Assembly: GCF_018709685.1 (NCBI RefSeq)
Contig: NZ_JABDHQ010000004.1
Span: forward strand, 124,001 to 188,000
Direction of reading: 5' to 3'
Source of the DNA: Akkermansia muciniphila
Lineage (GTDB): Bacteria; Verrucomicrobiota; Verrucomicrobiia; Verrucomicrobiales; Akkermansiaceae
Length of the DNA: 64,000 nucleotides
Below, piece after piece: positions 29,281-47,162 of the stretch (within the stretch, counting starts at the first letter, position 1; each line of letters starts with the position of its first letter). The notes under the pieces were generated by a model. It worked only from the letters and a program-made list of their open reading frames with translations, made no database searches and was not told the origin of the DNA. The position numbers were made by a program, and so were the translations under genes.

Positions 29281-30162
29281 TTACCGGGACGTCAGGCGGT
29301 CATACAATTCATTGGCATATCTGTGGTTGGGATGGTTCACGTTCATATACGCATCATAAAGCGGGTGGGAAGGGTCTGACTCCATGCGCATGGCCTCCTC
29401 CGCAGGAGAAGGCGTATCATTCCCCGAATGATGAAGGGGCGCTTCATCCAGCAGGCGGGAGGCTTGGAACAGCAGCCGGATCACGTCCGGATTGGAACCG
29501 AGCTCCGGATGATCAAGCAGGGCGTCCGCATCCACGCCCGTCTCTGACGCAAGCCGCTGGAGAGCGGCGGTAGCCCGGCCCATGTTGCGCTCATAATTGG
29601 CGCCCCATTCCTGCTGCAGGGACTCTTCCGCCCGGGTTTCCATCTCCAGCCGGGAATCCGCCATCTGTTCCCTGGCTTCCTGATACGCCTGGGACATTGT
29701 CTCCTGAAGGGCATTCATGGCTTCCGGAGGCACGCCGTAACGGTAGGCCGTGCGGGCCATGCGTTCCGCCAGTCCGGCGTTCCACTCGCTTTCCGGCATG
29801 GATTCCGGTCGCTCCAGGCGGTACTCCTCCTCTGACTCCGGAAGCCCGGCCATCCGCCGGAACCGCTCCATCTGCTCCTCATTCTCCACACCGGGATAAT
29901 GCCGCATGCGCTCCAGCTCCGCGTAACTCTTGGCCAGGGCCTCCGGCGTCTTAAACTTGGAAAGGGACTTCTCCATCCCCTTCAGCTCATCAAAACGGGC
30001 GTACCAGTCCGGAACAAAACCTCCGTCCTCCCCCAGAAGGCCGGGAAGAGGTTCGGACGGCGCGGGAGCCCCGGTTAAAATTTCCGCCTCCGGAGAAACT
30101 CCCCCGGAAAAATCCGCCTCCCTGGAGGGGGCGGCCGTATGGTTATCAATGGAATCAATCAT
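29281..30162 (-). CDS. Phage scaffolding/capsid-assembly-like protein
   Basis: A 293-residue acidic, helical protein. WYARFDELKGMEKSLSKFKT, then EALAKSYAELERM and LPESEEEYRLERPE, recall the scaffold proteins of T7-like podoviruses, which have a 'SLAKFKSVEALAKSYLELE' region followed by Glu-rich helices and guide capsid assembly. It is the last gene of the leftward cassette (32291 to 29281) and overlaps the Bbp19-like gene by 8 bases. In such phages the major capsid gene usually comes next; here a hairpin and a tRNA follow instead, so the cassette appears cut off. Confidence 0.65.
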   Translation of the reverse strand: MIDSIDNHTAAPSREADFSGGVSPEAEILTGAPAPSEPLPGLLGEDGGFVPDWYARFDELKGMEKSLSKFKTPEALAKSYAELERMRHYPGVENEEQMERFRRMAGLPESEEEYRLERPESMPESEWNAGLAERMARTAYRYGVPPEAMNALQETMSQAYQEAREQMADSRLEMETRAEESLQQEWGANYERNMGRATAALQRLASETGVDADALLDHPELGSNPDVIRLLFQASRLLDEAPLHHSGNDTPSPAEEAMRMESDPSHPLYDAYMNVNHPNHRYANELYDRLTSR

Positions 30163-30436
30163 TTTTTTCTTCTGCTGTGGATTCTTTAATGGCTAGTTGA
30201 AGCTGGCGGCGAATGTACAGGAATATCTCCCTGTAAGCATCCCGCCTCATGGCGTCCAGGGGGTCGTAGCTCCCGGGACTGCCTTGAAAAACGGGCAAAT
30301 CAGTCTGGAAGCGAGCCTCCAGAAAGGTCAGCGCCTCCCGCCCGTCCGGGGTGTCAAACACCCGGAGAAGCTGGCGCCTTCTAAGACGGGCCTCCCTGAG
30401 GGAAGCCTCCTGCTGCAATGTCGTATCCTGGTTCAT
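30155..30436 (-). CDS. Bbp19-like phage protein
   Basis: A 93-residue protein containing RRQLLRVFDTPDGREALTFLEARF and YDPLDAMRRDAYREIFLYIRRQL, the pattern of the Bbp19-like family found between portal and scaffold genes in podoviruses. Function is unknown. It overlaps the portal gene by 4 bases and the scaffold gene by 8, indicating an intact translational chain. Confidence 0.72.
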   Translation of the reverse strand: MNQDTTLQQEASLREARLRRRQLLRVFDTPDGREALTFLEARFQTDLPVFQGSPGSYDPLDAMRRDAYREIFLYIRRQLQLAIKESTAEEKND

Positions 30437-32067
30437 TCCTGAATTGCTGTTAACTGGTCAAGTAAAGGATTGAGGGAAGCGTACGGGTCCTCTTCCGCCG
30501 GGGCTTGCGCGGCCTCCTGCTGGCGGTCCGCACGCTCCTTCCGCATGGCCTGGACGTCAGCCCATGGCCTCAGCATGCTCTCCGGGGCGCCGTCCACACG
30601 GGTGGACAGGCGGAAACAATGGTCCCAGTCCACATGGTCCGCCAGGTCCGGCGCGGCCTGCATCATCATATTCAGGCGCTGAAGGCTGCGGTCCATCCCC
30701 TCGCTCTGCAAGCGCCTGAGCACCAGCGCAATCTTTGACTGGTACACCACCCTGGGTTCTCCGACGGCAATGGCCCCGTCCCTCCCCTCCCGCAGAACGG
30801 CGCGGGGAGGCCTGGGGAACTTGCCCATGCGGAACAGCAGGGAGAAAATGCGCGTCATGGTGGAATACAGGTCACTCACAAACAGCGTGAAAGACGGGGA
30901 AAACATCAGAACGCGTTCGTTCTCCCGGGCCATCACCTCCGTGGCGGTCATGCTGCCGCGGTGGCCGCTCCAGAGCTCCAGCATGGGCAGGTAATAGGCG
31001 CGCCGGATGGCGTCCTGCTTCTGCGCCAGGCGGTCCATCCCTACGTCGTACCTGCCCTGCGTGGCCCACTCCCGCGGAAGGTGGAGGGAAGCGGCCTCCG
31101 GCGTGATGACGGTTCTGCCGCCGGCCCTCAGGTCCACCTCCCCGATCTGGTTAGCCAGCTCCAGAATGCGGGGGAAGGCGGCAACCTCACCCAGGGTGTC
31201 CAGAATACGGTTCAGAAACTGCACCTGCTGGATGGCGGGAAACACCAGCCTGCCGGGCGCAAGGCCGTACGGCCCGCTGCCCCACTTCAAAAACCGGGTC
31301 ACCAGGTACGGAAACTCCATGTATCCCCCTTCCTCCACGATCACCTGGTCATCCAGGGACAGGTACACGCTCTCAAACGGCATGTGGGCGGCCTGTTCCC
31401 TGCGGCGGCTGCGCCGGGCGCGCGGACGAACCACATGCAGGAACCTCAAGGACGTGGCGTATGGATTGCCTCCGCGTTCCAGCGCCTCCCGCGCACGGGG
31501 GCCCAGCGCCTTCAGGCCGAACATGGAACGTGCCTGGTGGGCGGTATAGGTAAACTCCCGCACGTAGGTATCCACCCGGCCTTCCGCATTCTCCGCGCAG
31601 GCGAACTGCCCGCACGGAATATTTGTAAACAGCAGCCTGCCGTCTGACGAATTCCCAGTAAACAGGCTTCCCGTTCCCAAAGCCACCCGGTCCAGAAAAC
31701 ACTCATGGATCTCCGTATAGAAATTGGAAACGGACAGCTCCTTCAAGGCAATCTCCGAGCACTGGTTATACCAGGCCTCCGCTTCATCCCCGCCCCGGTC
31801 ATCCGGAGCGGACCACTTGAACCACACGTCATGGCTGGGCGTGATGTAGGACATATGGCCGCTTGCCAGCTTCTGGCAAGCCTCCACGGCAGTGGTATCC
31901 GTCATGCGGTCCATGGCGTCCCTACTGGGCAGGGAAACATCCCCTTCCCGGTTCAGGCGCCGCGGCAGCACGTAATCCCTCAAACGGTCCCACCACGTCT
32001 CCCAGGGAGCGCGCTGGGCGGCCAGGGACTTGTACACGGAATTCAACTCCGCAACTCTCTCTTCCAT
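30433..32067 (-). CDS. Phage portal (head-to-tail connecting) protein
   Basis: A 544-residue podovirus-type portal (head-tail connector family PF12236). Supporting text: WETWWDRLRDYVLPRR near the start, ACQKLASGHMSYITPSHDVWFKWS, LGTGSLFTGNSSDGRLLFTNIPCGQF, SVYLSLDD, and GHRGSMTATEVMARENERVLMFSP, all typical of T7-like connectors. Portals form the dodecameric DNA gate of the capsid. It is full length, without an internal stop. Terminase large subunit and major capsid genes are not in the window, so it cannot build particles from this locus alone. Confidence 0.85.
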   Translation of the reverse strand: MEERVAELNSVYKSLAAQRAPWETWWDRLRDYVLPRRLNREGDVSLPSRDAMDRMTDTTAVEACQKLASGHMSYITPSHDVWFKWSAPDDRGGDEAEAWYNQCSEIALKELSVSNFYTEIHECFLDRVALGTGSLFTGNSSDGRLLFTNIPCGQFACAENAEGRVDTYVREFTYTAHQARSMFGLKALGPRAREALERGGNPYATSLRFLHVVRPRARRSRRREQAAHMPFESVYLSLDDQVIVEEGGYMEFPYLVTRFLKWGSGPYGLAPGRLVFPAIQQVQFLNRILDTLGEVAAFPRILELANQIGEVDLRAGGRTVITPEAASLHLPREWATQGRYDVGMDRLAQKQDAIRRAYYLPMLELWSGHRGSMTATEVMARENERVLMFSPSFTLFVSDLYSTMTRIFSLLFRMGKFPRPPRAVLREGRDGAIAVGEPRVVYQSKIALVLRRLQSEGMDRSLQRLNMMMQAAPDLADHVDWDHCFRLSTRVDGAPESMLRPWADVQAMRKERADRQQEAAQAPAEEDPYASLNPLLDQLTAIQE

Positions 32068-33895: not shown

Positions 33896-35935
33896 GACAG
33901 CAGAGTCGCACTCCGTGTGGAGTGCGACGCGGACTGGGAACTCTGGATGCAGGCCGCCGCGGTTTCAATCCACGCACTCCGTGTGGAGTGCGACGATGAC
34001 CATGAAGAACTGGTTGAATACCAACAAAGTTTCAATCCACGCACTCCGTGTGGAGTGCGACGCAAAGCAATAAGTACAAGCTTGAAGCCATTACGGTTTC
34101 AATCCACGCACTCCGTGTGGAGTGCGACAAAAGGATTTATTACCTTCCGAATTTTCCGCAACGTTTCAATCCACGCACTCCGTGTGGAGTGCGACCTATG
34201 TCTCCCCTCGATATAGGACAATACCAAGATGGTTTCAATCCACGCACTCCGTGTGGAGTGCGACGCACACAATATCCACAGGTGCCGTTTCCACGGCGGT
34301 TTCAATCCACGCACTCCGTGTGGAGTGCGACCCTTGCAGCTGGGCTGCCTGGATATTGCCACCGGGTTTCAATCCACGCACTCCGTGTGGAGTGCGACAT
34401 TCGCCTTCAGAAACGGCTGAAGGCGGTTGCGGGTTTCAATCCACGCACTCCGTGTGGAGTGCGACGGTATTTGTATAGAATCTCTAGGGCAGGCAGGGGG
34501 TTTCAATCCACGCACTCCGTGTGGAGTGCGACCAAGATTTTTTTCAAAAAAGTTATAACGCGTTGGTTTCAATCCACGCACTCCGTGTGGAGTGCGACGC
34601 TATACAGGGCGTTGCCCTTAAACCAGACACGGGTTTCAATCCACGCACTCCGTGTGGAGTGCGACCAAAGTTTCATGAATCTTGGAGCATTGGACGTGTG
34701 GTTTCAATCCACGCACTCCGTGTGGAGTGCGACTAAATGTGCACGCAAACAGTGTGCCCCATACGCTGTTTCAATCCACGCACTCCGTGTGGAGTGCGAC
34801 GCCGTGTTTGCGGCATGCCGTGGGACCCTGATTTGTTTCAATCCACGCACTCCGTGTGGAGTGCGACTTTTTATGGCCGCCACTGTATGGCTTACTTTCC
34901 AGTTTCAATCCACGCACTCCGTGTGGAGTGCGACCCGCCGGAAACGGATAATGAGCCGCAAGAAGCGGGTTTCAATCCACGCACTCCGTGTGGAGTGCGA
35001 CCGCCCCAAACCAGCTCAATAGCATGACACAGCTAGTTTCAATCCACGCACTCCGTGTGGAGTGCGACCAGATGGAAGTATTCAGGACGCTGGCCAAGGC
35101 GGTTTCAATCCACGCACTCCGTGTGGAGTGCGACCCGGCAAGGGAAAAAGAAACCGACCCGGAAGCGGTTTCAATCCACGCACTCCGTGTGGAGTGCGAC
35201 TTTGCCCGGCTGTGATAGTTGAGGGGGCTTTCCTGTTTCAATCCACGCACTCCGTGTGGAGTGCGACCCGCAAAGAGATTGAAACCAAGCAACGGAACCA
35301 GGTTTCAATCCACGCACTCCGTGTGGAGTGCGACGTTCATCCGCGTATTTGACGAGTTGGCCGCCAGGTTTCAATCCACGCACTCCGTGTGGAGTGCGAC
35401 AAGTCACCCCGCCCGTGGCGGTCGTTTCCACCGGTTTCAATCCACGCACTCCGTGTGGAGTGCGACCATAAGGCGGATAGGGTTGTTGCTTACGGCCCGT
35501 GTTTCAATCCACGCACTCCGTGTGGAGTGCGACTGCGCAGCACGTGCGCCACGCCGCTGCCTCCCTTGTTTCAATCCACGCACTCCGTGTGGAGTGCGAC
35601 TCTTCTTTAATAGTTGAGCCTGACGTTACCGTCAGTTTCAATCCACGCACTCCGTGTGGAGTGCGACCGGCATCCAGCCCTGCGGCGGAAGCCTGCAATC
35701 CGTTTCAATCCACGCACTCCGTGTGGAGTGCGACCGTCGAATCGTCCGAAGACGGCGCCGACTGGGCGGTTTCAATCCACGCACTCCGTGTGGAGTGCGA
35801 CATGTCGTACTGGCTAAAAAATAGCCTCAATAGTTGTTTCAATCCACGCACTCCGTGTGGAGTGCGACTGCCCTCTCTCCCTCTGGATAAGGTGCTTGCG
35901 TAGTTTCAATCCACGCACTCCGTGTGGAGTGCGAC
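33896..35935 (-). CRISPR. Type I-C CRISPR array 1 (33-nt repeat, 31 repeats, 30 spacers)
   Basis: The plus-strand repeat begins GTTTCAATCCACGCACTCCG and ends TGTGGAGTGCGAC (33 nt). Copies start at 33962, 34029, 34096, 34163, 34232 and so on to 35903, with 33-36-base spacers. In crRNA orientation (minus strand) it runs from GTCGCACTCC to GGATTGAAAC, the I-C type, with a 7-bp hairpin GCACTCC/GGAGTGC. The leftmost copy (33896-33928) has lost the TTTCAATCCAC half, marking the old trailer end; the leader is on the right, next to cas2. The leader-proximal spacer (35869-35902) is identical to that of array 2. Confidence 0.99.
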
Positions 35936-36135
35936 CGCGTATGATCATATGCACTGTTATTCAACAGTGCAAACGATACTTTGCGCCAACCTCCCGGAGA
36001 AGACCGTCATTGCACGGCCTCCTCTCGGGGTGATCATCTGTCAATCTTCAATTCCCAATGCATTACATCTATCGCCGACCTCCCGGGGAATTTGTGTGAG
36101 CTTGGGGTTGGCGCAAAGGCCGTGTTCAACAGTCT
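35936..36135 (-). promoter_or_regulatory. Leader of CRISPR array 1
   Basis: The 200 bases between the newest repeat and the cas2 stop. An 8-bp hairpin at 35951-35970 (GCACTGTT/AACAGTGC) lies near the array. A long-range inverted repeat, TTTGCGCCAACCTC (35980-35993) and GGGGTTGGCGCAAA (36104-36117), encloses the middle; 36072-36117 is strongly similar to 47095-47140 in the array 2 leader. This should hold the crRNA promoter and the Cas1-Cas2 integration signals. Confidence 0.8.
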
Positions 36136-36426
36136 TTAAATAATCAGGGGGCCGGAAATGTCATAGCTTTTTTCCTTTCCCAATTGTTCTATCTTATGAT
36201 GCCAATTGGAACCCATGTGATAAATCCTCAGGCTGTCGCTTTCGTGATCAATAATTTTAAGCAGCTTGCTCCTGATGTCAACCAATTGGGCCGGAGACAG
36301 TTCACATTCAAATACGGAATTCTGCACCCTCTGTCCGATATTTTCACAGGCGCGGGCAACCTGGCGCAAGCGGCGCTGCCCTGCCTTATCCTCCGTGGAG
36401 ACATCATAAGTAATGAGAATGTACAT
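36136..36426 (-). CDS. cas2: CRISPR integrase subunit Cas2
   Basis: A 96-residue Cas2 with the ferredoxin-like opening MYILITYDVSTEDKAGQRRL, the region EFECELSP-like (SVFECELSPAQLVDI), and the end SYDISGPLII. With Cas1 it forms the complex that inserts new spacers at the leader-proximal repeat. It starts 2 bases after the cas1 stop and is the last gene of the leftward cas4-cas1-cas2 operon, directly facing the leader of array 1. It appears complete. Confidence 0.97.
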   Translation of the reverse strand: MYILITYDVSTEDKAGQRRLRQVARACENIGQRVQNSVFECELSPAQLVDIRSKLLKIIDHESDSLRIYHMGSNWHHKIEQLGKEKSYDISGPLII

Positions 36427-36428
36427 GG

Positions 36429-37448
36429 TTACTTACTGATAAAGGGAGGATAACAATCCAAATCACCACGCAGGTGGCGCGCCATTAAAAGAGCTTGAAT
36501 ATGAACCAGCAATCCCAGTGTGGTCTTTTCTTGAAGGAAAGGATGCACCAGAACGGTCTTCTTCCGTTCCTGCCAGGCGTTCAACACTTTCTTACGGGAG
36601 TCTTCCTTCAGGAAAAAGGCACCGGACTCTTCCTTGTCAAAATCATCTGCGGTGATCTGCCTGCGGTTAATCAGCGTAAGGGCCAGTCGATCGGCCAGGG
36701 GTGCCCGGAATTCCTCCATCAGGTCGAGGGCCATACCGGGACGCCCCGGGCGGTCACGGTGCAAAAAGCCGGCGGAGGCATCAATGCCGGAGCTTTCAAG
36801 AGCGGACCGGGCATCATGGCACAACAAACTGTACAGAAAAGACAGCAGGGCATTAAAACAATCCCTGGGAGGGCGCCTGTTGCGGCCTTCAAACACCAGT
36901 TCCGGATCTTCCGTCCTCTGGCAATGGGAGAGGCAGGAAAAATATGTTTCTGCCGCAGAGCCTTCAATCCCCCGCAGGATGTCGCCGGATTCACAGCCGC
37001 GAGCCATGCGGCAAAAGGCCGCCAGACGGTTTACCGCCTCTGACAAATCCTTCCCGTACGTTCTCTGCGCCCTTAAAAGCAGGCTGCGGCAGTTCGCAAT
37101 CTTAGCCGCAATCATTTCCCGTGCCACGCCCACCCACCTTGTCTCATCATCAGCCCAGCGGTACTGCTCCCGGCGCAGCAGGATATTTCCCTTCATGAAG
37201 CCTTGCACGCCGGCCAGGAACTTTCCGTAAGGATTACAGAAGGAAAGAGTGACGCCGCGTTCAGCGCAGGCCCCCATCAAATGCGGGGAAACTCCTATAT
37301 CCCACCCCAGCGTTACGATGCCCTCCAGATTATGAAGGGGAACCCGGAGCAGGCAGGCCCCTTCAGAATTCACTTTTACGGTATCGCCGTCCTTGGACAG
37401 CCAGCATCCCTCCAGTGTAACAAACAAGGTATTTAAATGCTTCTTCAT
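36429..37448 (-). CDS. cas1: CRISPR integrase Cas1 (type I-C)
   Basis: A 339-residue Cas1c. The N-terminal beta domain (NTLFVTLEGCWLSKDGDTV) and C-terminal catalytic domain are present; the metal ligands lie in GIEGSAAETYFS (Glu), AGFLHRDRPGRPG (His) and MALDLMEEFR (Asp/Glu). It is intact, so spacer acquisition is probably possible. Its start overlaps the cas4 stop by 4 bases. Confidence 0.97.
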   Translation of the reverse strand: MKKHLNTLFVTLEGCWLSKDGDTVKVNSEGACLLRVPLHNLEGIVTLGWDIGVSPHLMGACAERGVTLSFCNPYGKFLAGVQGFMKGNILLRREQYRWADDETRWVGVAREMIAAKIANCRSLLLRAQRTYGKDLSEAVNRLAAFCRMARGCESGDILRGIEGSAAETYFSCLSHCQRTEDPELVFEGRNRRPPRDCFNALLSFLYSLLCHDARSALESSGIDASAGFLHRDRPGRPGMALDLMEEFRAPLADRLALTLINRRQITADDFDKEESGAFFLKEDSRKKVLNAWQERKKTVLVHPFLQEKTTLGLLVHIQALLMARHLRGDLDCYPPFISK

Positions 37449-38113
37449 AAATCATCAGCTTCACTTGCACCAAGGCTGTCCTCAAACACATCATCCACCC
37501 GGGCCCTCAGGGCCTGCCTGTGCTCCCGGCACATGGAAGGCAGGCAATCATTGACCAGGGAACAGGACTTGCAGCCCTTGGAATAATGGGGCAATGGCGT
37601 AACAATGCCCGTCAGCACTTCCCTGGCACTACAGATAACCTGGGCTGTCAGGGAACGCAATTCCTGGTCAAATACCACTTCAAGCCTTCTCTGGGTCTTT
37701 CCGTAAAATAAAAAGCCGGAAGGAATTTCCACCTTGAACATCTCTTCCAGGCATAGTGCCTGGGCGCACACCTGCACTTCATCTGCACGATGCGGCTTGG
37801 GCTTCCCCACCTTGTATTCCACGGGAGTCATGAACACTGCCTCACCGCCCTTTTCAGCATAAACGGCTTCCACCACATCCGCAATCCCGTGAATACCCCA
37901 CTGTGCGGAAGAAACATGAAGGGAGCGCAGCACTTTTTTCAATCCGCGGGTTTCCGTCATCCCGGAATCAGCCCGTTCATGAAATACATTTCCCTCTGCC
38001 GTGAACTGGTTCTCCTCCCATGCGCATTCCAGATGAATCAGAGCGCACTGCCTGGGACAGTACAGGTAATGCTGCAATGCCGCCAAGGGTATGGAGAAGA
38101 GAGTCGAAGACAT
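37445..38113 (-). CDS. cas4: CRISPR-associated Cas4 nuclease (type I-C)
   Basis: A 222-residue RecB-like nuclease with an Fe-S cluster. ALQHYLYCPRQCALIHLEC has the first Cys, and YSKGCKSCSLVNDCLPSMC near the C-terminus has the other three. TPVEYKVGKPKPH carries the nuclease Glu-x-Lys motif. In I-C systems Cas4 joins Cas1-Cas2 and trims prespacers so that they carry the correct PAM and orientation. It is first in the leftward operon, 126 bases from the divergent cas3 start. Confidence 0.95.
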   Translation of the reverse strand: MSSTLFSIPLAALQHYLYCPRQCALIHLECAWEENQFTAEGNVFHERADSGMTETRGLKKVLRSLHVSSAQWGIHGIADVVEAVYAEKGGEAVFMTPVEYKVGKPKPHRADEVQVCAQALCLEEMFKVEIPSGFLFYGKTQRRLEVVFDQELRSLTAQVICSAREVLTGIVTPLPHYSKGCKSCSLVNDCLPSMCREHRQALRARVDDVFEDSLGASEADDL

Positions 38114-38239
38114 CTTGGAAATTCTGTTCAGAATGGAACCCTAAATAAAATACTAAATTAATCAATTCATATCTTGTAAATCCCACGGAAAAGACTACTC
38201 TGGCTCTCCGGTACTGGAACTGGGAAGGAAGAATAAAAC
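38114..38239. promoter_or_regulatory. Divergent promoter region of the two cas modules
   Basis: The 126-base gap between cas4 (leftward) and cas3 (rightward) is AT-rich at 38140-38185 and must start both operons. GGGAAGGAAG about 8 bases before the cas3 ATG is a good ribosome binding site. A shared control region would allow coordinated or competitive regulation of adaptation and interference. Confidence 0.55.
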
Positions 38240-40702
38240 ATGTTAGCACGGCCTGGACAGACAATTGAACAGCACACGCATGAGTGTATTGTAGGCGCCT
38301 CTCTTAACGCGGCAAAAATAGGATTGGCCAGGACGGCGGCGCTCATCGGGGCGCTTCACGACTTTGGGAAATGGAGTGATGCCTTTTATGAATATATGGA
38401 GGCTATTGTCTCCGGAAAAGACCCTGGACCTCGAGGCTCCGTCGATCACTCTACGGCAGGAGCACAACATCTGTGGCGTTATTTCATGAATGCTCCCCAC
38501 CCAATGGAAGCATTTGAAAAATATTGGGTTCAAATAATAGCCCTTTGCTGTCTTTCCCACCATGAAGGATGCCTGATTGATAATCTAAAAACGGACGGTA
38601 CCAATTCCTTCAAAGCCCGCATTACTAAAAACGTCGAGAAATCCCACTATAAAGAAGCCTGGAAGAACATGCCTGAAGAGGAAAAAGCCCGGATACAGGC
38701 AATGCTTTCGGATCCGGCCTTAAGAGAAGAATGGCGTTCCCTTGATGCCCTCCTCAGAAATGGTGAGAAAAAACTGTCTGGCAAGGAAATAAAATACCGA
38801 TATGGTCTCTTGTGCCGGTTTTTGTTGAGTTCCCTTGTGGATGCCGACCATTCCAGTGCGGGCGGAGAGCCGGTTGAAGCCGTACCCACACCTCCATGGG
38901 ACAAGATGCTGGCTAATCTGGACAGTTATCTGGCAGGCTTTACCTCACATGGAATGATTGATGATTTGCGTACAGAAATATCTCAACGCAGTTTCAACGC
39001 AGCAGGTCGCCCTCAAGGCAAGTTTTTAATGACTCTCCCCACAGGAGCCGGGAAAACTCTGGCCAGTCTGCGGTTTGCGTTGGCCCACGCACAGAAGCAT
39101 CATCTGGACCGGTTGATCTATGTTATTCCCTACACCTCTATCATTGACCAGAATGCGGCTATCATCCGTGACGCATTGGGGGAGGAATTTGGAGATCTCA
39201 TCCTGGTTCATCATTCCAATGTCCTCGTTGATCCCAAAAATGAATTATCCGGAAGCGAACTCTATCAGGAGGAGGAAAAGCGCCACCAAGCCGAATGCTC
39301 CTGGAATCCTCCCATTATTCTGACAACGGCGGTACAGTTTTTGCAGACGCTGTTTTCCAAAGGGAGCCATTACGTGCGCCGTATGAACAGCTTGGCCCGT
39401 TCAGTAATTATTTTCGACGAAGTTCAGGCTCTCCCTTTAAAATCCACCTACTTGTTGACATCCGCATTAAATTTCATGGATGAAGTCATGGGATGCAGTC
39501 TTGTTTTATGCACGGCTACGCAGCCCATATGGAGCCGATTGGAGGATAAGGTTTGGAATTTAAGGCTGAATCCAGATCCTCATATCATTCCCGACTATCA
39601 GAAATATTTTGAACTGTTTCATTCCAACCGCCGGATTGCTCTGAATATGATTGAAGAATCCAAACAATGGAAACTTCAGGAGTTTACTGATTTTGCATTA
39701 AAACAAGCGCGGATGGGTAACAATACCTTAATGATAGTTAATACGAAATCCTTTGCCCGCAATCTGTATGAGGCCTGTGGCGATGTGGAGGATGTACAAA
39801 CCTGCCATTTAAGCACAAACATGATCCCGGAGGATCGCTCAGGCATCATCCAACATAAAATAGACAAACACTCTCTTGAAACAGCTAAAAAGACTGGAAG
39901 ACCTATCTTGTGCTTCAGTACGCAATTAATTGAAGCTGGGGTGGATGTGGACTTTGATGTAGTCATTCGTAGTGCAGCAGGCCTGGACTCTCTTGTCCAG
40001 GCCGGTGGCCGCTGCAACAGAAATGCCCGGCTGGACGAGGGAAACATGTTCGTCGTCTTTCCTTCCCAAAAACTGGAGCATACAGACAAATTGGAAGAAA
40101 TCAGCATTGGCAAATCACTTTTACACCAAATTTTCAGCGACGTGCACGGAAATGCCGATTTACTGATGGAAGAAAACGCCTTGGATTCTTTTTACCGACA
40201 TTATTATTCTGAGCAACGGAACAAGTTGGCTTACCCGTTGGAGGCCGACAGTTACACCATGATGGACCTGCTTTCTACGAATGAAGCCATAAAAATGGAG
40301 GCGCAGCGGATTCAGTCTGACAGCTCCGACATGCTTCTGCATCAGTCATTCCAAAAAGCGGCAGAAGCTTATAGAGTCATCGAAGGCTTATCCACTCCAG
40401 TCATTGTGAATAAGGGCGAGGGGGCTCAGATTATAGAAAAATTGATAGAGCTGGCGCACCCTCATTCGCAAGAAGAATGGAGAGACGTCCGAAAATTGCT
40501 CAGGGACGCCATGAAGTACACGCTCTCATTAAACTATTCCGAGCAGGAAGTTCATTCCATGCTTGCAGACGGAGTACTTGTGTTACTACCCACGGATTAT
40601 CCTGTCTATATGCTTTCAGAAATTCATTATGATGAAAAAACTGGATTTTCATGGTCCGGAAAAGAACCCTATGCTAAAAATCCAGGCGCTCTTATCTCTT
40701 AA
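38240..40702 (+). CDS. cas3: CRISPR nuclease-helicase Cas3 (type I-C)
   Basis: An 820-residue Cas3 with both activities. The N-terminal HD nuclease has HTHECIVGASLNAA, then IGALHDFGKWSDAF (HD pair), and PRGSVDHSTAGAQH; the SF2 helicase has Walker A LPTGAGKTLAS (Lys272), DEVQ at 393-396 (DExH-type box), LCTATQPIW, and the motif VI region QAGGRCNRNARL. It is recruited by the Cascade complex to degrade target DNA. It is full length with no break. It is first in the rightward operon cas3-cas5-cas8c-cas7, 11 bases before cas5. Confidence 0.97.
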   Translation: MLARPGQTIEQHTHECIVGASLNAAKIGLARTAALIGALHDFGKWSDAFYEYMEAIVSGKDPGPRGSVDHSTAGAQHLWRYFMNAPHPMEAFEKYWVQIIALCCLSHHEGCLIDNLKTDGTNSFKARITKNVEKSHYKEAWKNMPEEEKARIQAMLSDPALREEWRSLDALLRNGEKKLSGKEIKYRYGLLCRFLLSSLVDADHSSAGGEPVEAVPTPPWDKMLANLDSYLAGFTSHGMIDDLRTEISQRSFNAAGRPQGKFLMTLPTGAGKTLASLRFALAHAQKHHLDRLIYVIPYTSIIDQNAAIIRDALGEEFGDLILVHHSNVLVDPKNELSGSELYQEEEKRHQAECSWNPPIILTTAVQFLQTLFSKGSHYVRRMNSLARSVIIFDEVQALPLKSTYLLTSALNFMDEVMGCSLVLCTATQPIWSRLEDKVWNLRLNPDPHIIPDYQKYFELFHSNRRIALNMIEESKQWKLQEFTDFALKQARMGNNTLMIVNTKSFARNLYEACGDVEDVQTCHLSTNMIPEDRSGIIQHKIDKHSLETAKKTGRPILCFSTQLIEAGVDVDFDVVIRSAAGLDSLVQAGGRCNRNARLDEGNMFVVFPSQKLEHTDKLEEISIGKSLLHQIFSDVHGNADLLMEENALDSFYRHYYSEQRNKLAYPLEADSYTMMDLLSTNEAIKMEAQRIQSDSSDMLLHQSFQKAAEAYRVIEGLSTPVIVNKGEGAQIIEKLIELAHPHSQEEWRDVRKLLRDAMKYTLSLNYSEQEVHSMLADGVLVLLPTDYPVYMLSEIHYDEKTGFSWSGKEPYAKNPGALIS

Positions 40703-40713
40703 TTTATTTTATC

Positions 40714-41409
40714 ATGGGAAATAACATAGAATACATGGTATCAGGGAAATTGGCCCTATTCACTGATCCCCTCACCCGCATGGGCGGTGAAAAATACTCT
40801 TACCACATCCCTACTTATGAAGCTTTAAAGGGAGTAACCAAATCTATTTATTGGAAGCCCACCATTAATTGGGTCATTGATGAAGTGCGCATCATGAATC
40901 CCATTCGGACGTTCGCAAAAAACATGAAACTGATCAAGTATCATGAAAGCGGTGCTGAACTGTCAGTATACACTTATTTGATAGATGTTGCTTATCAGGT
41001 ACGAGCTCATTTCGAATGGAATTTGCTTCGCAAGGACATGATGGCGGACCGCATTGAAGGAAAACATGCCGCCATCATCCGCCGCACTCTGGAAAAGGGA
41101 GGCAGACGCGACATCTGCCTGGGCGCACGTGAATGCCAGGCTTATGTGGAACCGTGCCGCTTTGGAAACACACCCGGAGCCTATGATGACACTCCGGAAC
41201 TCGCCTTCGGCGTTATGTTCCATGGATTTGATTATCCGGATGAGACGGGAAGAGACGAATTGGGGGTGCGCTTCTGGAAACCCGTCATGAAGAATGGGAT
41301 TGTAAAATTCATCCGTCCAGAAGAGTGTAATATAACGAGGGCTGTCCGCAAGATGAAGGCTAATCCTCCACGCTCATGCGGAACAAAAGACTCCTCTTTG
41401 GAAGAATAG
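40714..41409 (+). CDS. cas5: Cas5d/Cas5c crRNA-processing endonuclease
   Basis: A 231-residue Cas5 of the I-C type: YMVSGKLALFTDPLTRMGGEKYSYHIPTYEALKG, split here as MVSGKLALFTDPLTRMGGEK and SYHIPTYEALKG, then IYWKPTINWVIDEVRIMNPI. In I-C there is no Cas6; Cas5 cuts the repeat at the base of its hairpin. It therefore has to accept both repeat types in this locus if both arrays are used. The length is normal. Confidence 0.95.
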   Translation: MGNNIEYMVSGKLALFTDPLTRMGGEKYSYHIPTYEALKGVTKSIYWKPTINWVIDEVRIMNPIRTFAKNMKLIKYHESGAELSVYTYLIDVAYQVRAHFEWNLLRKDMMADRIEGKHAAIIRRTLEKGGRRDICLGARECQAYVEPCRFGNTPGAYDDTPELAFGVMFHGFDYPDETGRDELGVRFWKPVMKNGIVKFIRPEECNITRAVRKMKANPPRSCGTKDSSLEE

Positions 41410-41424
41410 AAAGCGAGGTAAACA

Positions 41425-43347
41425 ATGAACTGGATGGAAGCTTTATATAGGACGTACGAAGACAACGCGCAACAGGTGGGGAAGAACTCTTCGGAAGAGA
41501 GAGATTTAAAAAAACGGACGATCACACCGCTATTCCCGCTTTATCATGGTAGCCAAAATGCCCAGATAACAGTCGTACTGGATGGTTACGGCAATTTCAG
41601 ACGAGCAGAAATCGTCCCCACGGGGAGCCAGCAAACAATCATTCCCGTTACTGAAAAATCCGGAGGAAGAACCAGCGGCCTGTGTCCCCACCCTCTTTGC
41701 GATAAACTGCAATATGTAGCGGGAGATTTTACCAGATGGACGAACAACAGCAAAAGCGGGTACAAAGAATATCTAAACCAGTTGGAGTGCTGGAAAGACT
41801 TTGATCCTTCCAATGCCACGCTTTCTGCCATCTTTGCGTACGTATTAAAAGGTACCCTTTTGGAAGATCTTGTTGAATCAAAAATTCTGCCCGTCAATGA
41901 AAACTCCTTCTTAATGAAAAAATGGACGGGCGAAAAGAATGATACACCGGCAATTTATGCAGCCCTCGGAGTGGTCGGCATAGACGCTATCCTTGTAAGA
42001 TGGAGAGTAGAAATTCCTGGTAATCTTGTTCCGGACGTATGGAAAAACAAGGAAATGTGGAACTCCTGGATCCGATTTCAAGAATCACGGGGTCAAAACA
42101 CAGGCTTGTGCTATGTGACGGGTGAGACCACTAATTTGGCAACACAGCACCCGGCCCGTATCAGAAATGCTGGAGACGGCGCCAAAATCATCTCCTCCAA
42201 TGATTCTTCCGGGTTCACGTTCAGAGGAAAATTTGATGACTCGAAGGAGGTGTGCGGGGTAAGCCGTGAAGTCTCCCAGAAAGCCCACAGTGCCTTGAGA
42301 TGGCTTATTTCCAACCAGGGGTGGAGAGATGACTCCCAGGCAATCGTAGCTTGGTCATCCAGAAGCCTTTTCATGCCAGGTCCATGGTCTGACACCAGAG
42401 AATTGCTGGAGATGGATCCGGACGAAGAACCTGAAACCATCCAATACACGGCCGAAGAAGTGGGACGAAAGCTTAGAACTAAAATCTCAGGTTATAAAGA
42501 AGAAGTAGCCAACATCAGCAAAGTTTTCATCATGGGCCTGGATTCAGCCACTCCCGGTCGTTTGTCCATCACCTTCTTCAACGAGATGGACTCCGTTGAA
42601 TATTGGAATAACATTGAGCATTGGCATACTAAATGTGTGTGGTGGCAGTGGAGTGAAAAAAACAAATTGCGGTACGCCGGTGCCCCTTCTCCCAGAACCA
42701 TTGCGGAAGTGGCCTATGGAAAATCCGTGGACGAAAAATTGCGCAAGCAGACAGTGGTTCGTCTACTTCCCTGCATTATTAAGAGACGACCTGTTCCCCC
42801 TGATCTGGTAGATGCCTGCATCCACAAGGCCTGCAACAGAAGCGGGCTAGAGAATCGGGATTGGAATCTTGCCGTCAATACTGCATGCGCCTTATTTAGA
42901 TACCAATTTAACTCAACCCAAAAACAACACCATTACACCATGAGTCTGGATAGAACCATTACAGAGCGGGGATATTTATACGGAAGGCTGCTTGCTGTAG
43001 CGGAATTGCTGGAAAAAGCCGCCCAGAAAGCCTCCTCCGATACGGAACGCCCCACCAATGCGGAAAAACTGATGCAGCGCTTCAGCTCCCACCCACATTC
43101 AACGTGGCAAACTTTGCGCAAAGCACTTGATCCTTATATTCAAATATTAACAAAAAATAAACCAGGATGGAAAAATTACTACGATAAAGAATTAGCAAGT
43201 ATTCATGACCTCTTTGATCAAACCGATTTCATCAATGACAGTAAGGTTTCAGGAGAATTCCTCTTGGGATATTACTGCCAAAAATCGGACATGTTCAATA
43301 AAACATCTTCCTCAAAAGAAGAAGAAAATTCCCAACCTAAAGAATAA
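41425..43347 (+). CDS. cas8c: Cas8c large subunit of the I-C Cascade
   Basis: A 640-residue Csd1-type protein. MNWMEALYRTYEDNAQQVGK is a typical Cas8c start, followed by ITPLFPLYHGSQNAQITVVLDGYGNF, RTSGLCPHPLCDKLQYVAGD and SNDSSGFTFRGKFDDSKEVCGVS. Cas8c recognises the PAM and stabilises the R-loop; in I-C a Cas11-like small subunit is usually translated from an internal start in its C-terminal part, which could be so here (not verifiable by eye). It is intact and 15 bases after cas5. Confidence 0.95.
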   Translation: MNWMEALYRTYEDNAQQVGKNSSEERDLKKRTITPLFPLYHGSQNAQITVVLDGYGNFRRAEIVPTGSQQTIIPVTEKSGGRTSGLCPHPLCDKLQYVAGDFTRWTNNSKSGYKEYLNQLECWKDFDPSNATLSAIFAYVLKGTLLEDLVESKILPVNENSFLMKKWTGEKNDTPAIYAALGVVGIDAILVRWRVEIPGNLVPDVWKNKEMWNSWIRFQESRGQNTGLCYVTGETTNLATQHPARIRNAGDGAKIISSNDSSGFTFRGKFDDSKEVCGVSREVSQKAHSALRWLISNQGWRDDSQAIVAWSSRSLFMPGPWSDTRELLEMDPDEEPETIQYTAEEVGRKLRTKISGYKEEVANISKVFIMGLDSATPGRLSITFFNEMDSVEYWNNIEHWHTKCVWWQWSEKNKLRYAGAPSPRTIAEVAYGKSVDEKLRKQTVVRLLPCIIKRRPVPPDLVDACIHKACNRSGLENRDWNLAVNTACALFRYQFNSTQKQHHYTMSLDRTITERGYLYGRLLAVAELLEKAAQKASSDTERPTNAEKLMQRFSSHPHSTWQTLRKALDPYIQILTKNKPGWKNYYDKELASIHDLFDQTDFINDSKVSGEFLLGYYCQKSDMFNKTSSSKEEENSQPKE

Positions 43348-43352
43348 AAACC

Positions 43353-44174
43353 ATGTCATTACAACATAAGATAGACTTTGCGGTTATCTTCACCGTAAAA
43401 AATGCGAATCCTAACGGAGATCCGTTAAATGGCAACCGCCCCCGAACCACTCTTGATGGCAACGGGGAACTTTCCGATGTCTGTTTGAAACGTAAAATCC
43501 GTAACAGGCTCCTTGATTCCGGGGTTCCTATATTTGTACAATCGGACGATCACAAGATAGATACCTGCAAGACATTAAAAGACAGGGCTTCCATTCTTCT
43601 GGAAGGGAAGAAATCCAGGGAGGAACAAACAAATCTGGCTTGCCGGACGTGGTTTGATGTGCGTGCCTTTGGACAACTGTTTGCATATAAAGGTACGGGT
43701 GAAAAAAAGAATGACGGCGTTTCCATCGGTATTCGTGGTCCTGTCACCGTCCAGGCAGCTTTCAGCGTAGAACCTGTTGAAATCACCAGTACCCAAATTA
43801 CCAAAAGTGTCAGCGGAGAAGGCGATGGCACAAAAAAAGCATCCGATACCATGGGCATGAAACACCGAGTGGATCATGGAGTCTATGTTTTCTATGGAGC
43901 CATTTCTCCTCAGCTTGCTTCCCTTACAGGATTCAGTGACGAAGATGCAGAAATCTTAAAAAATGCCCTCCCGTTCATGTTTGAAGGGGATGCCTCTTCC
44001 GCCCGTCCTGAAGGCAGCATGGAAGTAAAGAAGGTAATCTGGTGGCAACATTCCTGCCCCGCAGGCCAATATTCTTCCGCCAAGGTACACCGAAGCCTTA
44101 TTGTTCATGCTGACGGCACCTATAAGATGGAAAATCTTCCAGGATTGACTCCGGAAGAAATTGATGGTTTTTAA
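43353..44174 (+). CDS. cas7: Cas7/Csd2 backbone subunit of the I-C Cascade
   Basis: A 273-residue Cas7: KIDFAVIFTVKNANPNGDPL, NGNRPRTTLDGNGELSDVCLKRKIRN, RTWFDVRAFGQLFA, SIGIRGPVTVQAAFSVEPV and MGMKHRVDHGVYVFYGAIS. Several copies coat the crRNA spacer. It starts 5 bases after cas8c and ends the interference operon before a strong terminator. In the usual I-C order cas4-cas1-cas2 would follow here; in this locus they are on the other side, inverted. Confidence 0.97.
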   Translation: MSLQHKIDFAVIFTVKNANPNGDPLNGNRPRTTLDGNGELSDVCLKRKIRNRLLDSGVPIFVQSDDHKIDTCKTLKDRASILLEGKKSREEQTNLACRTWFDVRAFGQLFAYKGTGEKKNDGVSIGIRGPVTVQAAFSVEPVEITSTQITKSVSGEGDGTKKASDTMGMKHRVDHGVYVFYGAISPQLASLTGFSDEDAEILKNALPFMFEGDASSARPEGSMEVKKVIWWQHSCPAGQYSSAKVHRSLIVHADGTYKMENLPGLTPEEIDGF

Positions 44175-44180
44175 CATCTT

Positions 44181-44216
44181 GTCCAGGCCCATCTTCATAA
44201 GGAAATGGGCCTGGAC
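44181..44216 (+). terminator. Terminator of the cas interference operon
   Basis: A perfect 12-bp stem (44181-44192 with 44205-44216, GTCCAGGCCCAT) with a 12-base loop and TTTATTTG following, 6 bases after the cas7 stop. Confidence 0.85.
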
Positions 44217-44313
44217 TTTATTTGTTCTTATAGTAAGCAAAAGAAAAAACTGAAACGTCCAGAATTTAAGTGCCTCTTAGTGCTAGCAGTCACTCACCGT
44301 GGAGCCACGTTAT

Positions 44314-44838
44314 TTATTCTCGGCAATATTTTCCATCTGCAAGTACCACGGATGTTTCAATCTGTCTTTCCGGAACCGTCCAATACTTCTTTAACAGCAG
44401 CTTCCGTTCTTCAGGCCCTACCAAATGAAACCCGTTTTTCTGGTAGAAGTCGATCGCCCAGGTCGCATCCGCCCACGTTCCTATTAAAACAGGTTTCTCC
44501 TGATCTTTTCGTAAATAGTTAAGAAGCTGAACTCCAATTCCACGCCGCCTGGCGCATGTCCTGACATAGGCGTGACGTATCAGTTTAACATCTTCCCGGT
44601 CCTGAATGCCCATGACACCAAGAAGGAGCCCCTTATCTTCATAACAGTAAAACTCCACACCATCTCTGATCTGTTCCTTTAATTCATCCATGGGCATGTA
44701 AGGTTCCTTCCATCTGTCGGCAGGAATCCTGTCTTTATAAGCCACGGCTGAATCATTGATAATTTCATAAATCGTTTCCTGTTCCGACTTCAAGCACTTT
44801 CTAATCATCTCATCTATCCCTCTTGATGCAAAATACAA
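44314..44838 (-). CDS. GNAT-family N-acetyltransferase
   Basis: A 174-residue GNAT protein: GVEFYCYEDKGLLLGVMGIQDRED (strands 2-4), IRHAYVRTCARRRGIGVQLLNYL (acetyl-CoA loop with R-x-x-G-I-G), and TWAIDFYQKNGFHLVGPEERKLLL (C-terminal half). Another Met at residue 11 (MIRKCLKSE) may be the true start. It sits between the cas genes and array 2 and has no known CRISPR role; it is probably cargo or an ordinary chromosomal gene. The substrate is unknown. Confidence 0.8.
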   Translation of the reverse strand: MYFASRGIDEMIRKCLKSEQETIYEIINDSAVAYKDRIPADRWKEPYMPMDELKEQIRDGVEFYCYEDKGLLLGVMGIQDREDVKLIRHAYVRTCARRRGIGVQLLNYLRKDQEKPVLIGTWADATWAIDFYQKNGFHLVGPEERKLLLKKYWTVPERQIETSVVLADGKYCRE

Positions 44839-45109
44839 CGGAAACTTAACATACCGTTGCCATGTTCCTATAACGAATTCTTCCTGGTTCTAGAAGTTTC
44901 ATTTGTGTCACAGATTACCTTTTTAAATATTTAAGCCCGACTATTATTTTTCTTTATTACTTCAAGAAAGTCGCCCCCAAACCATTCTCACCTTGGCACC
45001 CCCTATTTAATGCTATGCCATTTAAGAGGGCTGGTATTTGATGGTCGCACCTATATCTCCATACAGGTGTGACAACCATCTAAAACGTATACCCCTTGAC
45101 GCATATCGT
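44839..45109. other. Trailer side of CRISPR array 2
   Basis: AT-rich, with no gene. At 45041-45080 two imperfectly inverted pieces (TGGTCGCACCT and AGGTGTGACAACCA) resemble the end of the array 2 repeat (GGTGCGAC) and may be relics of decayed repeats. The left edge probably holds the promoter of the GNAT gene. Confidence 0.4.
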
Positions 45110-46958
45110 GTTTAATCCACGCACCCGTGAGGGTGCGACCCAAAACGGGGTGGAAGATTGGGCGCACTATTGGTTTCAATCCACGCACCTGTGAGGGTGC
45201 GACACGCCGTCATGGCGGAACAGGCCAAATGGCTGATGTTTCAATCCACGCACCTGTGAGGGTGCGACGCCCGCAAAAAATTAAAGGGATGCCCGCACTG
45301 GCGTTTCAATCCACGCACCTGTGAGGGTGCGACCCAGGGCGACGGTGGCAAGGGAATTTCACGACGGGTTTCAATCCACGCACCTGTGAGGGTGCGACTC
45401 ACGCCCGACCAGGCCGAGGCGATTGAAAAAGCGTTTCAATCCACGCACCTGTGAGGGTGCGACTGATGAAGATTATTCCAAACACAATACATGGATTGTT
45501 TCAATCCACGCACCTGTGAGGGTGCGACGACGCCTATTTCAACTGTAAACCCAACGCATTGGTTTCAATCCACGCACCTGTGAGGGTGCGACGGTTCACA
45601 AAGTGTTCTTTTTTTCTTGAAGAAAGGTTTCAATCCACGCACCTGTGAGGGTGCGACCTCCAGTTTGCCCGGCTGTAAAGGGCGGCAAAAGGTTTCAATC
45701 CACGCACCTGTGAGGGTGCGACCCGGATGGTCCCTCCGTATTGCTCCACCAGGGGGGTTTCAATCCACGCACCTGTGAGGGTGCGACACAGGCGCAAGAC
45801 GTATTCTGCCTTGATTGCATTGTTTCAATCCACGCACCTGTGAGGGTGCGACTTTGGATGAATTCTTTCTTGCCCATCGTGTAACGGGTTTCAATCCACG
45901 CACCTGTGAGGGTGCGACCATCCTTGCCTGACGCGGATGACGATCAGGAGCCAGTTTCAATCCACGCACCTGTGAGGGTGCGACTAGACTAGGCTTGCCA
46001 GGATGATACCTTTCGGGACGTTTCAATCCACGCACCTGTGAGGGTGCGACTCGATGAAATTCACCACGTCTTACGCAGTGACCGTTTCAATCCACGCACC
46101 TGTGAGGGTGCGACCAGCTCGCCGTACACCCAGCAGCGGACGTTTCCGGTTTCAATCCACGCACCTGTGAGGGTGCGACCGGATGACATTAAGACCTGCA
46201 TTGACGATCTTGAGTTTCAATCCACGCACCTGTGAGGGTGCGACAAGGTGCGCCAGGATGAAGCCAGGCTGAAAATGGTTTCAATCCACGCACCTGTGAG
46301 GGTGCGACACGCTGGCGGGCAACGCCCATCAAGAGACGTTCCGTTTCAATCCACGCACCTGTGAGGGTGCGACAGGAGCAGGGACAGAAGGGCGGCAAGG
46401 TTGATCCAGTTTCAATCCACGCACCTGTGAGGGTGCGACAACACGTTGAAATTAAATGGGATTTTGAAGGATGGTTTCAATCCACGCACCTGTGAGGGTG
46501 CGACTGCGTTCCGGCGCCACGACCGCCCGCAAGGCCGGTTTCAATCCACGCACCTGTGAGGGTGCGACGGAAGACCTGGCCATTACCCTGCGCCGCTGCA
46601 TGGTTTCAATCCACGCACCTGTGAGGGTGCGACTTCACCATGGCCGGACGCTTTCCCGAATGTGGAAGTTTCAATCCACGCACCTGTGAGGGTGCGACCG
46701 GAGTCCGTGTCTCCAAAAACCAATTAGTTAAAGTTTCAATCCACGCACCTGTGAGGGTGCGACCCCCCTAAATCTAAAAATTAGAATTAACTCATATGTT
46801 TCAATCCACGCACCTGTGAGGGTGCGACATCCTATAGCCCCTTATGGGGCATCCTAAAAATAGTTTCAATCCACGCACCTGTGAGGGTGCGACTGCCCTC
46901 TCTCCCTCTGGATAAGGTGCTTGCGTAGTTTCAATCCACGCACCTGTGAGGGTGCGAC
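45110..46958 (-). CRISPR. Type I-C CRISPR array 2 (31-nt repeat, 29 repeats, 28 spacers)
   Basis: The plus-strand repeat begins GTTTCAATCCACGCACCTGT and ends GAGGGTGCGAC (31 nt), with copies at 45173, 45238, 45303, 45368 and so on to 46928 and spacers of 33-36 bases. It shares the first 16 bases and the terminal GTGCGAC-type end with array 1 but has a shorter hairpin (GCACC[T/C]/GGGTGC). The leftmost copy (45110-45139) lacks one C in TTTCAAT and has CCC where the others have CCT, restoring a fully paired stem; it is the old trailer end. No cas genes adjoin its leader at the right. The newest spacer, 46894-46927, is identical to 35869-35902. Confidence 0.99.
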
Positions 46959-47162
46959 GGCGGAAAGGAATATGCGTTGAAAGTTAGTGGTACAAACGGC
47001 TCTTTGCGCCAACCTCTTTCAAGATACATAATCCTTACGCCTTCTATCTTATTGAAGGGAATGTCAATCTACTGGTTTCAATGACTTACAGGAATCGCCG
47101 ATCTACCGGGAAATTCCTGTGAGCTTGAGGTTGGCGCAAGCAGATCATCGGTTCAGCAATTC
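46959..47162 (-). promoter_or_regulatory. Leader of CRISPR array 2
   Basis: It contains TTTGCGCCAACCTC (47003-47016) and the inverse GAGGTTGGCGCAA (47127-47139). The stretch 47095-47140 (TCGCCGATCTACCGGGAAAT onward) closely matches 36072-36117 in the array 1 leader, while the sequence between the arms has diverged. This marks both as leaders recognised by the same adaptation machinery. Confidence 0.75.

Follow-up and report, generated by a model that had tools for sequence, protein, structure and literature searches.

The closest described cases of one spacer being stored more than once come from Sulfolobus and Thermus. In Sulfolobus, identical spacers were reported to have entered different clustered regularly interspaced short palindromic repeat (CRISPR) loci (Erdmann and Garrett, 2012, PMC3468723), where single clones had gained spacers at two or three of them, and independently acquired spacer pairs have been described for Thermus (PMC6452258) and Sulfolobus islandicus (PMC2946923). 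For Akkermansia, the published type I-C locus is divergent, with cas3-5-8c-7 opposite cas4-1-2 and an array at each end, and its protospacer adjacent motif (PAM) is TTC; orphan arrays were taken into the spacer analysis of that study (Karcher et al. 2021, PMC8278651). Within the Cas4-Cas1-Cas2 complex, the PAM end is determined by Cas4 (PMC6519985). We analyzed a type I-C locus in a 64,000-nucleotide (nt) stretch of an Akkermansia muciniphila genome (assembly GCF_018709685.1, contig NZ_JABDHQ010000004.1, positions 124,001 to 188,000; the window), in which two arrays with different repeats carry the same spacer, called X below, as their newest entry.

The window locus matches the published Akkermansia locus in its divergent gene order and its two arrays (PMC8278651). 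It is like the Sulfolobus case in that identical spacers occur in different loci of one organism, but that case concerned an archaeon infected in the laboratory, whereas the present one is a bacterial type I-C system with visibly different repeats and is known from a genome (PMC3468723). It also resembles the Thermus and S. islandicus cases, in which the same or an overlapping protospacer was gained repeatedly, as told from array context and partial overlap; however, those pairs were described as linking arrays of different types, or else different strains (PMC6452258, PMC2946923), and 37 of 41 S. islandicus pairs were offset, while the spacer matches compared here were all in PAM register. 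Nothing in the excerpted text of the Akkermansia study (PMC8278651) tells of one spacer shared by two arrays of a genome, and no description of this for Akkermansia was found in the literature searched, insofar as its text was available. The double storage of X, most likely by one capture machine, is thus a natural type I-C example of a known phenomenon, with unusually clear repeat markers, and does not point to a new mechanism.

The newest spacer is identical in two arrays with different repeats

The two copies of spacer X, each 34 nt long, were compared and found to be identical, with zero mismatches (Table 1), and each occupied position #1 from the leader, in array 1 and in array 2. The copy in array 1 was bounded by 33-nt repeats and the copy in array 2 by 31-nt repeats, as read on both sides of each. 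These results bear out what an earlier reading made from the letters alone (the sequence-only reading) had claimed, namely, that the same 34 bases stand beside the leaders of both arrays and between repeats specific to each. Exact identity around X spanned 57 nt, made up of 7 nt of one repeat, the 34 nt of the spacer, and 16 nt of the next repeat, and outside this block the flanking repeats differed by array. None of the spacers neighboring X was common to arrays 1 and 2. The rest of the window held no further match to X on either strand with up to 8 substitutions allowed, the whole genome held its two copies only at up to 3 mismatches, and 75 other genomes of the genus gave 0 matches at that same threshold. 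The likelihood that a 34-nt identity arose by chance is negligible. We also considered whether X could be a fixed first spacer or a genus-conserved guide, and rejected this because it was absent from the other searched genomes and unmatched elsewhere in its own.

Five arrays appear to share a single adaptation machine

The locus between the two arrays is of type I-C, and each of its 7 cas genes scored above the NCBIfam cut-offs, with cas3 recognized through two domain models and the genes lying in two divergent groups (Table 1). A search of the genome with Pfam family PF01867 found a single Cas1. The leaders of arrays 1 and 2 both lie on the right of their arrays and are homologous to each other. 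When the genome was searched with the leader motif, five sites were found, every one of them adjoining an array, and the three arrays of this family beyond the window were located on contigs C4 (array 3, truncated by the end of the contig), C5 (array 4), and C44 (array 5). The five leaders align with one another, and at least four repeat types occur among the five arrays. Given one Cas1 and five aligned leaders, all five arrays therefore appear to be supplied by one adaptation machine. In array 5 (C44, locus L182), a one-base repeat variant was found in the 8 leader-proximal repeats only, the 8 distal repeats carrying another, as expected if each insertion copies the leader-proximal repeat; this distribution shows polar growth of the array. 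The CCCG form of the repeat in array 2 was confined to the most distal repeat.

These observations point to an origin of the two copies by separate integrations: X was very probably stored twice by one type I-C Cas4-Cas1-Cas2 machine from the same invader fragment. The machine that would serve all five arrays of the genome is proposed to have captured the same PAM-defined fragment twice and integrated it beside the leader of array 1 as well as beside that of array 2, with each integration duplicating the local leader-proximal repeat and so leaving the copy of X between repeats of its own array. Because the repeat next to the leader is the template for each new one, an inserted spacer automatically comes to lie between array-specific repeats. 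X would have derived from a mobile element, at a site beside a TTC PAM, and the two insertions may have been near in time, because X is the newest spacer in both arrays.

Table 1. Features of the locus, in window positions
Feature	Position	Strand	Details
CRISPR array 1	33896..35935	-	31 repeats of 33 nt, of which 30 are perfect (33962-35935) and the most distal, starting at 33896, is degenerate; 30 spacers
Leader of array 1	35936..36135 (extent approximate)	-	homologous to leaders of arrays 2-5
Spacer X, copy 1 (array 1 #1)	35869..35902	-	transcribed from right
cas2	36136..36426	-	TIGR01573, 73.3 bits vs cut-off 24.5
cas1 (Cas1c)	36429..37448	-	TIGR03640, 452 bits vs cut-off 385; sole Cas1 found in genome
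cas4	37445..38113	-	TIGR00372, 135.6 bits vs cut-off 65
cas3 (helicase + HD nuclease)	38240..40702	+	TIGR01587 and TIGR01596, above cut-off
cas5c	40714..41409	+	TIGR01876, above cut-off
cas8c	41425..43347	+	TIGR01863, above cut-off
cas7	43353..44174	+	TIGR02589, above cut-off
CRISPR array 2	45109..46958	-	29 repeats of 31 nt, with a degenerate CCCG-form repeat farthest from the leader; 28 spacers
Spacer Y (array 2 #4)	46699..46732	-	identical to array 3 #2, contig C4 (L147 196-229)
Spacer X, copy 2 (array 2 #1)	46894..46927	-	
Leader of array 2	46959..47150 (extent approximate)	-	

Phage genes (a head-tail connector, PF12236, and a Bbp19-like gene, PF25181) were found at 30155-32067 of the window, just outside array 1 on its distal side; they are probably part of a prophage.

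Two further spacers are each shared between arrays within a genome

The spacers of 48 arrays from 45 loci were compared pairwise, with 517 spacers kept and 2 dropped. The loci were the leader-motif sites (up to 2 mismatches), the cas loci of the genomes holding them, and one array reached through a spacer match (L188); the set misses arrays with diverged leaders, is exclusive of the single-array loci of other species, and counts two pieces of contig G044:C24 as two arrays. Of the 38 places with a Cas1, the surrounding regions were examined for 27, the other 11 being 32-38% identical to the query, and a leader-like site at G007:C40 (L179) had no array of this family.

Comparison of spacers between arrays within genomes yielded three identical pairs: X, Y, and Z. 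Spacer Y is shared by arrays 2 and 3, both copies being 34 nt long and the surrounding repeats of the two arrays differing by one base; one scan behind this pair scored up to 3 candidate stretches per genome, and its matches are lower bounds. Pair Z was found in a related genome (G004), at #14 of the main array (34 nt) and #8 of array 1282k (33 nt), which lie between 33-nt and 31-nt repeats, respectively. The PAM-side ends of the two Z copies coincide (offset 0), with the extra base at the PAM-distal end. Every copy of X, Y, and Z lies between repeats of its own array. Such sharing was rare: the same spacer was found in 3 of 13,051 within-genome cross-array spacer pairs, compared to 0 of 115,555 between-genome pairs (Fisher p ~0.001), and in 6 of 4,780 same-array pairs, all of the latter in array 2 of genome G007. 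That array (L015 8924-9806) carries one spacer four times consecutively (#7-#10), a single copy measuring 34 nt and the remaining three 35 nt, with the difference at the PAM-distal end.

The sequence-only reading had also suggested checking whether the two arrays hold a common spacer at corresponding positions in other genomes. Seven cas loci with two arrays each were compared within the genus: the window locus shared a spacer across its arrays, and none of the 6 others did. Sharing of the newest spacer as a habit of this locus was thereby rejected. Outside the genus, 3 of 4 two-array loci shared no spacer, and the fourth (L109), whose arrays are adjacent and have the same repeat, shared at least 2 pairs. 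Recurrence of spacers within one array was seen in several single-array loci of other species (L019, L020, L024, and L031). In the 84-repeat array of genome G057 (L019 6-5457), a run of spacers recurs in order 21 positions away, which is a large internal segmental duplication.

Searches for the source of the shared spacers

The sequence-only reading had proposed that X be searched against phages and plasmids for a protospacer with the I-C PAM, and that search found none: weak matches came from 35 phage records, those listed (20) spanning 17-23 nt with E values of ~1 to 4, and plasmids gave no match. No protospacer of X was found in IMG/VR with the full-length spacer or with two partial patterns (18 nt and 20 nt), nor in GTDB genome contigs with one 20-mer, a search that possibly did not cover near relatives, and in 76 genomes of the genus its two own copies were the only matches with up to 3 mismatches. 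Likewise, searches of the genus genomes and of IMG/VR (one 20-mer each) found no protospacers of Y or Z. A 20-mer from spacer #24 of array 1 served as positive control and was found in 2 IMG/VR contigs, one of which had a full match.

Spacers from both window arrays matched congener genomes. One region, G007:C40 25-37 kb, was matched twice by array 2 and once by array 1, and both arrays therefore sample related elements. Among the array 4 spacers with matches, 1 of 3 had TTC upstream. Spacers #28 of array 2 (window 45140-45172), #9 of array 4 (L181), and #11 of array 5 (L182) agreed with one another at 24-27 of 33-34 bases and were in PAM register. By eye, their translations resembled a helicase-like motif encoded by a related IMG/VR contig, L219. 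The pattern is as if three samples had been taken at one site of related but diverged elements. In addition, spacer #6 of array 1 matched a spacer of a G001 array at 32 of 33 bases, in PAM register.

Separate integrations compared to other origins of the shared spacer

Recombination or gene conversion between the arrays could have copied X if both exchange points fell inside the repeat stretches of 7 and 16 nt that the arrays share, and the 57-nt shared block is exactly what the common parts of the repeats permit. Segmental duplication within arrays is known in the genus from the G057 spacer run, sharing by duplication between same-repeat arrays is called common in PMC12814883, and the one-base difference between the repeats around Y would also suit exchange. 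However, stretches of 7 and 16 nt are very short, and no adjacent spacer or repeat moved with X, although an exchange would be expected to bring repeats or neighbors along. The copies of Z, moreover, are unequal at the PAM-distal end while lying between 33-nt and 31-nt repeats. We consider an origin of X by exchange improbable. The adaptation machine itself might instead have cut a prespacer from one array and inserted it in the other with no new invader, as would agree with the finding of no source of X outside the arrays; but the 5' neighbor of a spacer within an array is the repeat end ...GAAAC and not the published PAM TTC (PMC8278651), and exact excision would preserve length, whereas the Z copies differ by 1 nt, making such copying very improbable. 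An assembly error that placed one true copy of X into both arrays might be suspected in an assembly of 48 contigs, in which contig C4 starts inside array 3 and repeats therefore troubled assembly. Both copies, however, lie well within a 227,509-base contig and are flanked by the repeats of their respective arrays; misjoining through the 57-nt block would presumably swap flanks and not make a second copy, and the like pair Z lies within a single 1.8-Mb contig of G004. We give an error of this kind very little weight.

Taken together, the array-specific repeats and the length difference of Z favor separate integrations over recombination. The 1-nt PAM-distal difference of Z accords with a PAM end fixed by Cas4 and a looser measurement of length at the opposite end, and copying would hardly produce it. 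The proposal that one Cas4-Cas1-Cas2 machine made two separate insertions is thus upheld by the array-specific repeats, the one Cas1, the homologous leaders, the repeat variant of array 5, and the Z difference. Several results weigh against it. No protospacer, and hence no PAM, was found for X, and of the 15 matches that window spacers had outside arrays in congener genomes, 5 were directly preceded by TTC, most of the non-TTC triplets being one base off TTC. The two copies of X are equal in length, as are those of Y, which copying would also give, although the chance of equal length for independent events is 0.49. Pair Y, taken alone, leaves exchange less well excluded, as its repeats differ by one base, and the Fisher test assumes independent pairs and has a between-genome control that is mostly between species.

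Frequency and timing of double storage

A 31-kb Akkermansia phage contains 1,490 TTC sites on both strands. With uniform sampling, and on the assumption that 10-20% of cross-array pairs come from the same element, ~0.9 to 1.7 same-site pairs are expected, compared to the 3 that were seen. Repeated sampling of shared phages, perhaps with favored sites, can therefore account for the rate of pairs, and no special double-recording device is needed.

If insertion times were independent and uniform, X would be at #1 in both arrays in ~1 in 840 cases. Its position favors insertions close in time, as a single case; the Y copies (at #4 and #2) and the Z copies (at #14 and #8) add nothing to this argument. 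The suggestion that an invader was recorded simultaneously in both arrays would fit X, newest in both, and does not extend to the other two pairs; primed recording, the other suggestion, would require an older spacer matching the same element close to the new protospacer. A stronger version, multi-array broadcasting, in which one dominant prespacer is loaded into several arrays of differing repeats in one burst within an infected cell and the redundant copies guard against deletion, is a speculative idea that we regard as rather unlikely.

Significance

The array-specific repeats make this locus a clean natural case in which insertion can be told from recombination, and one adaptation machine with several arrays can hold the same memory in more than one copy. 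Akkermansia genomes carrying as many as five such arrays under a single Cas1 offer a tractable setting for measuring how frequently arrays are charged jointly, and shared newest spacers could act as time links between them. If multi-array broadcasting were true, matching newest spacers would mark the time of a single infection in several arrays, and the dispersed arrays served by one Cas1 would hold a memory in redundant copies, guarding it against loss by deletion.

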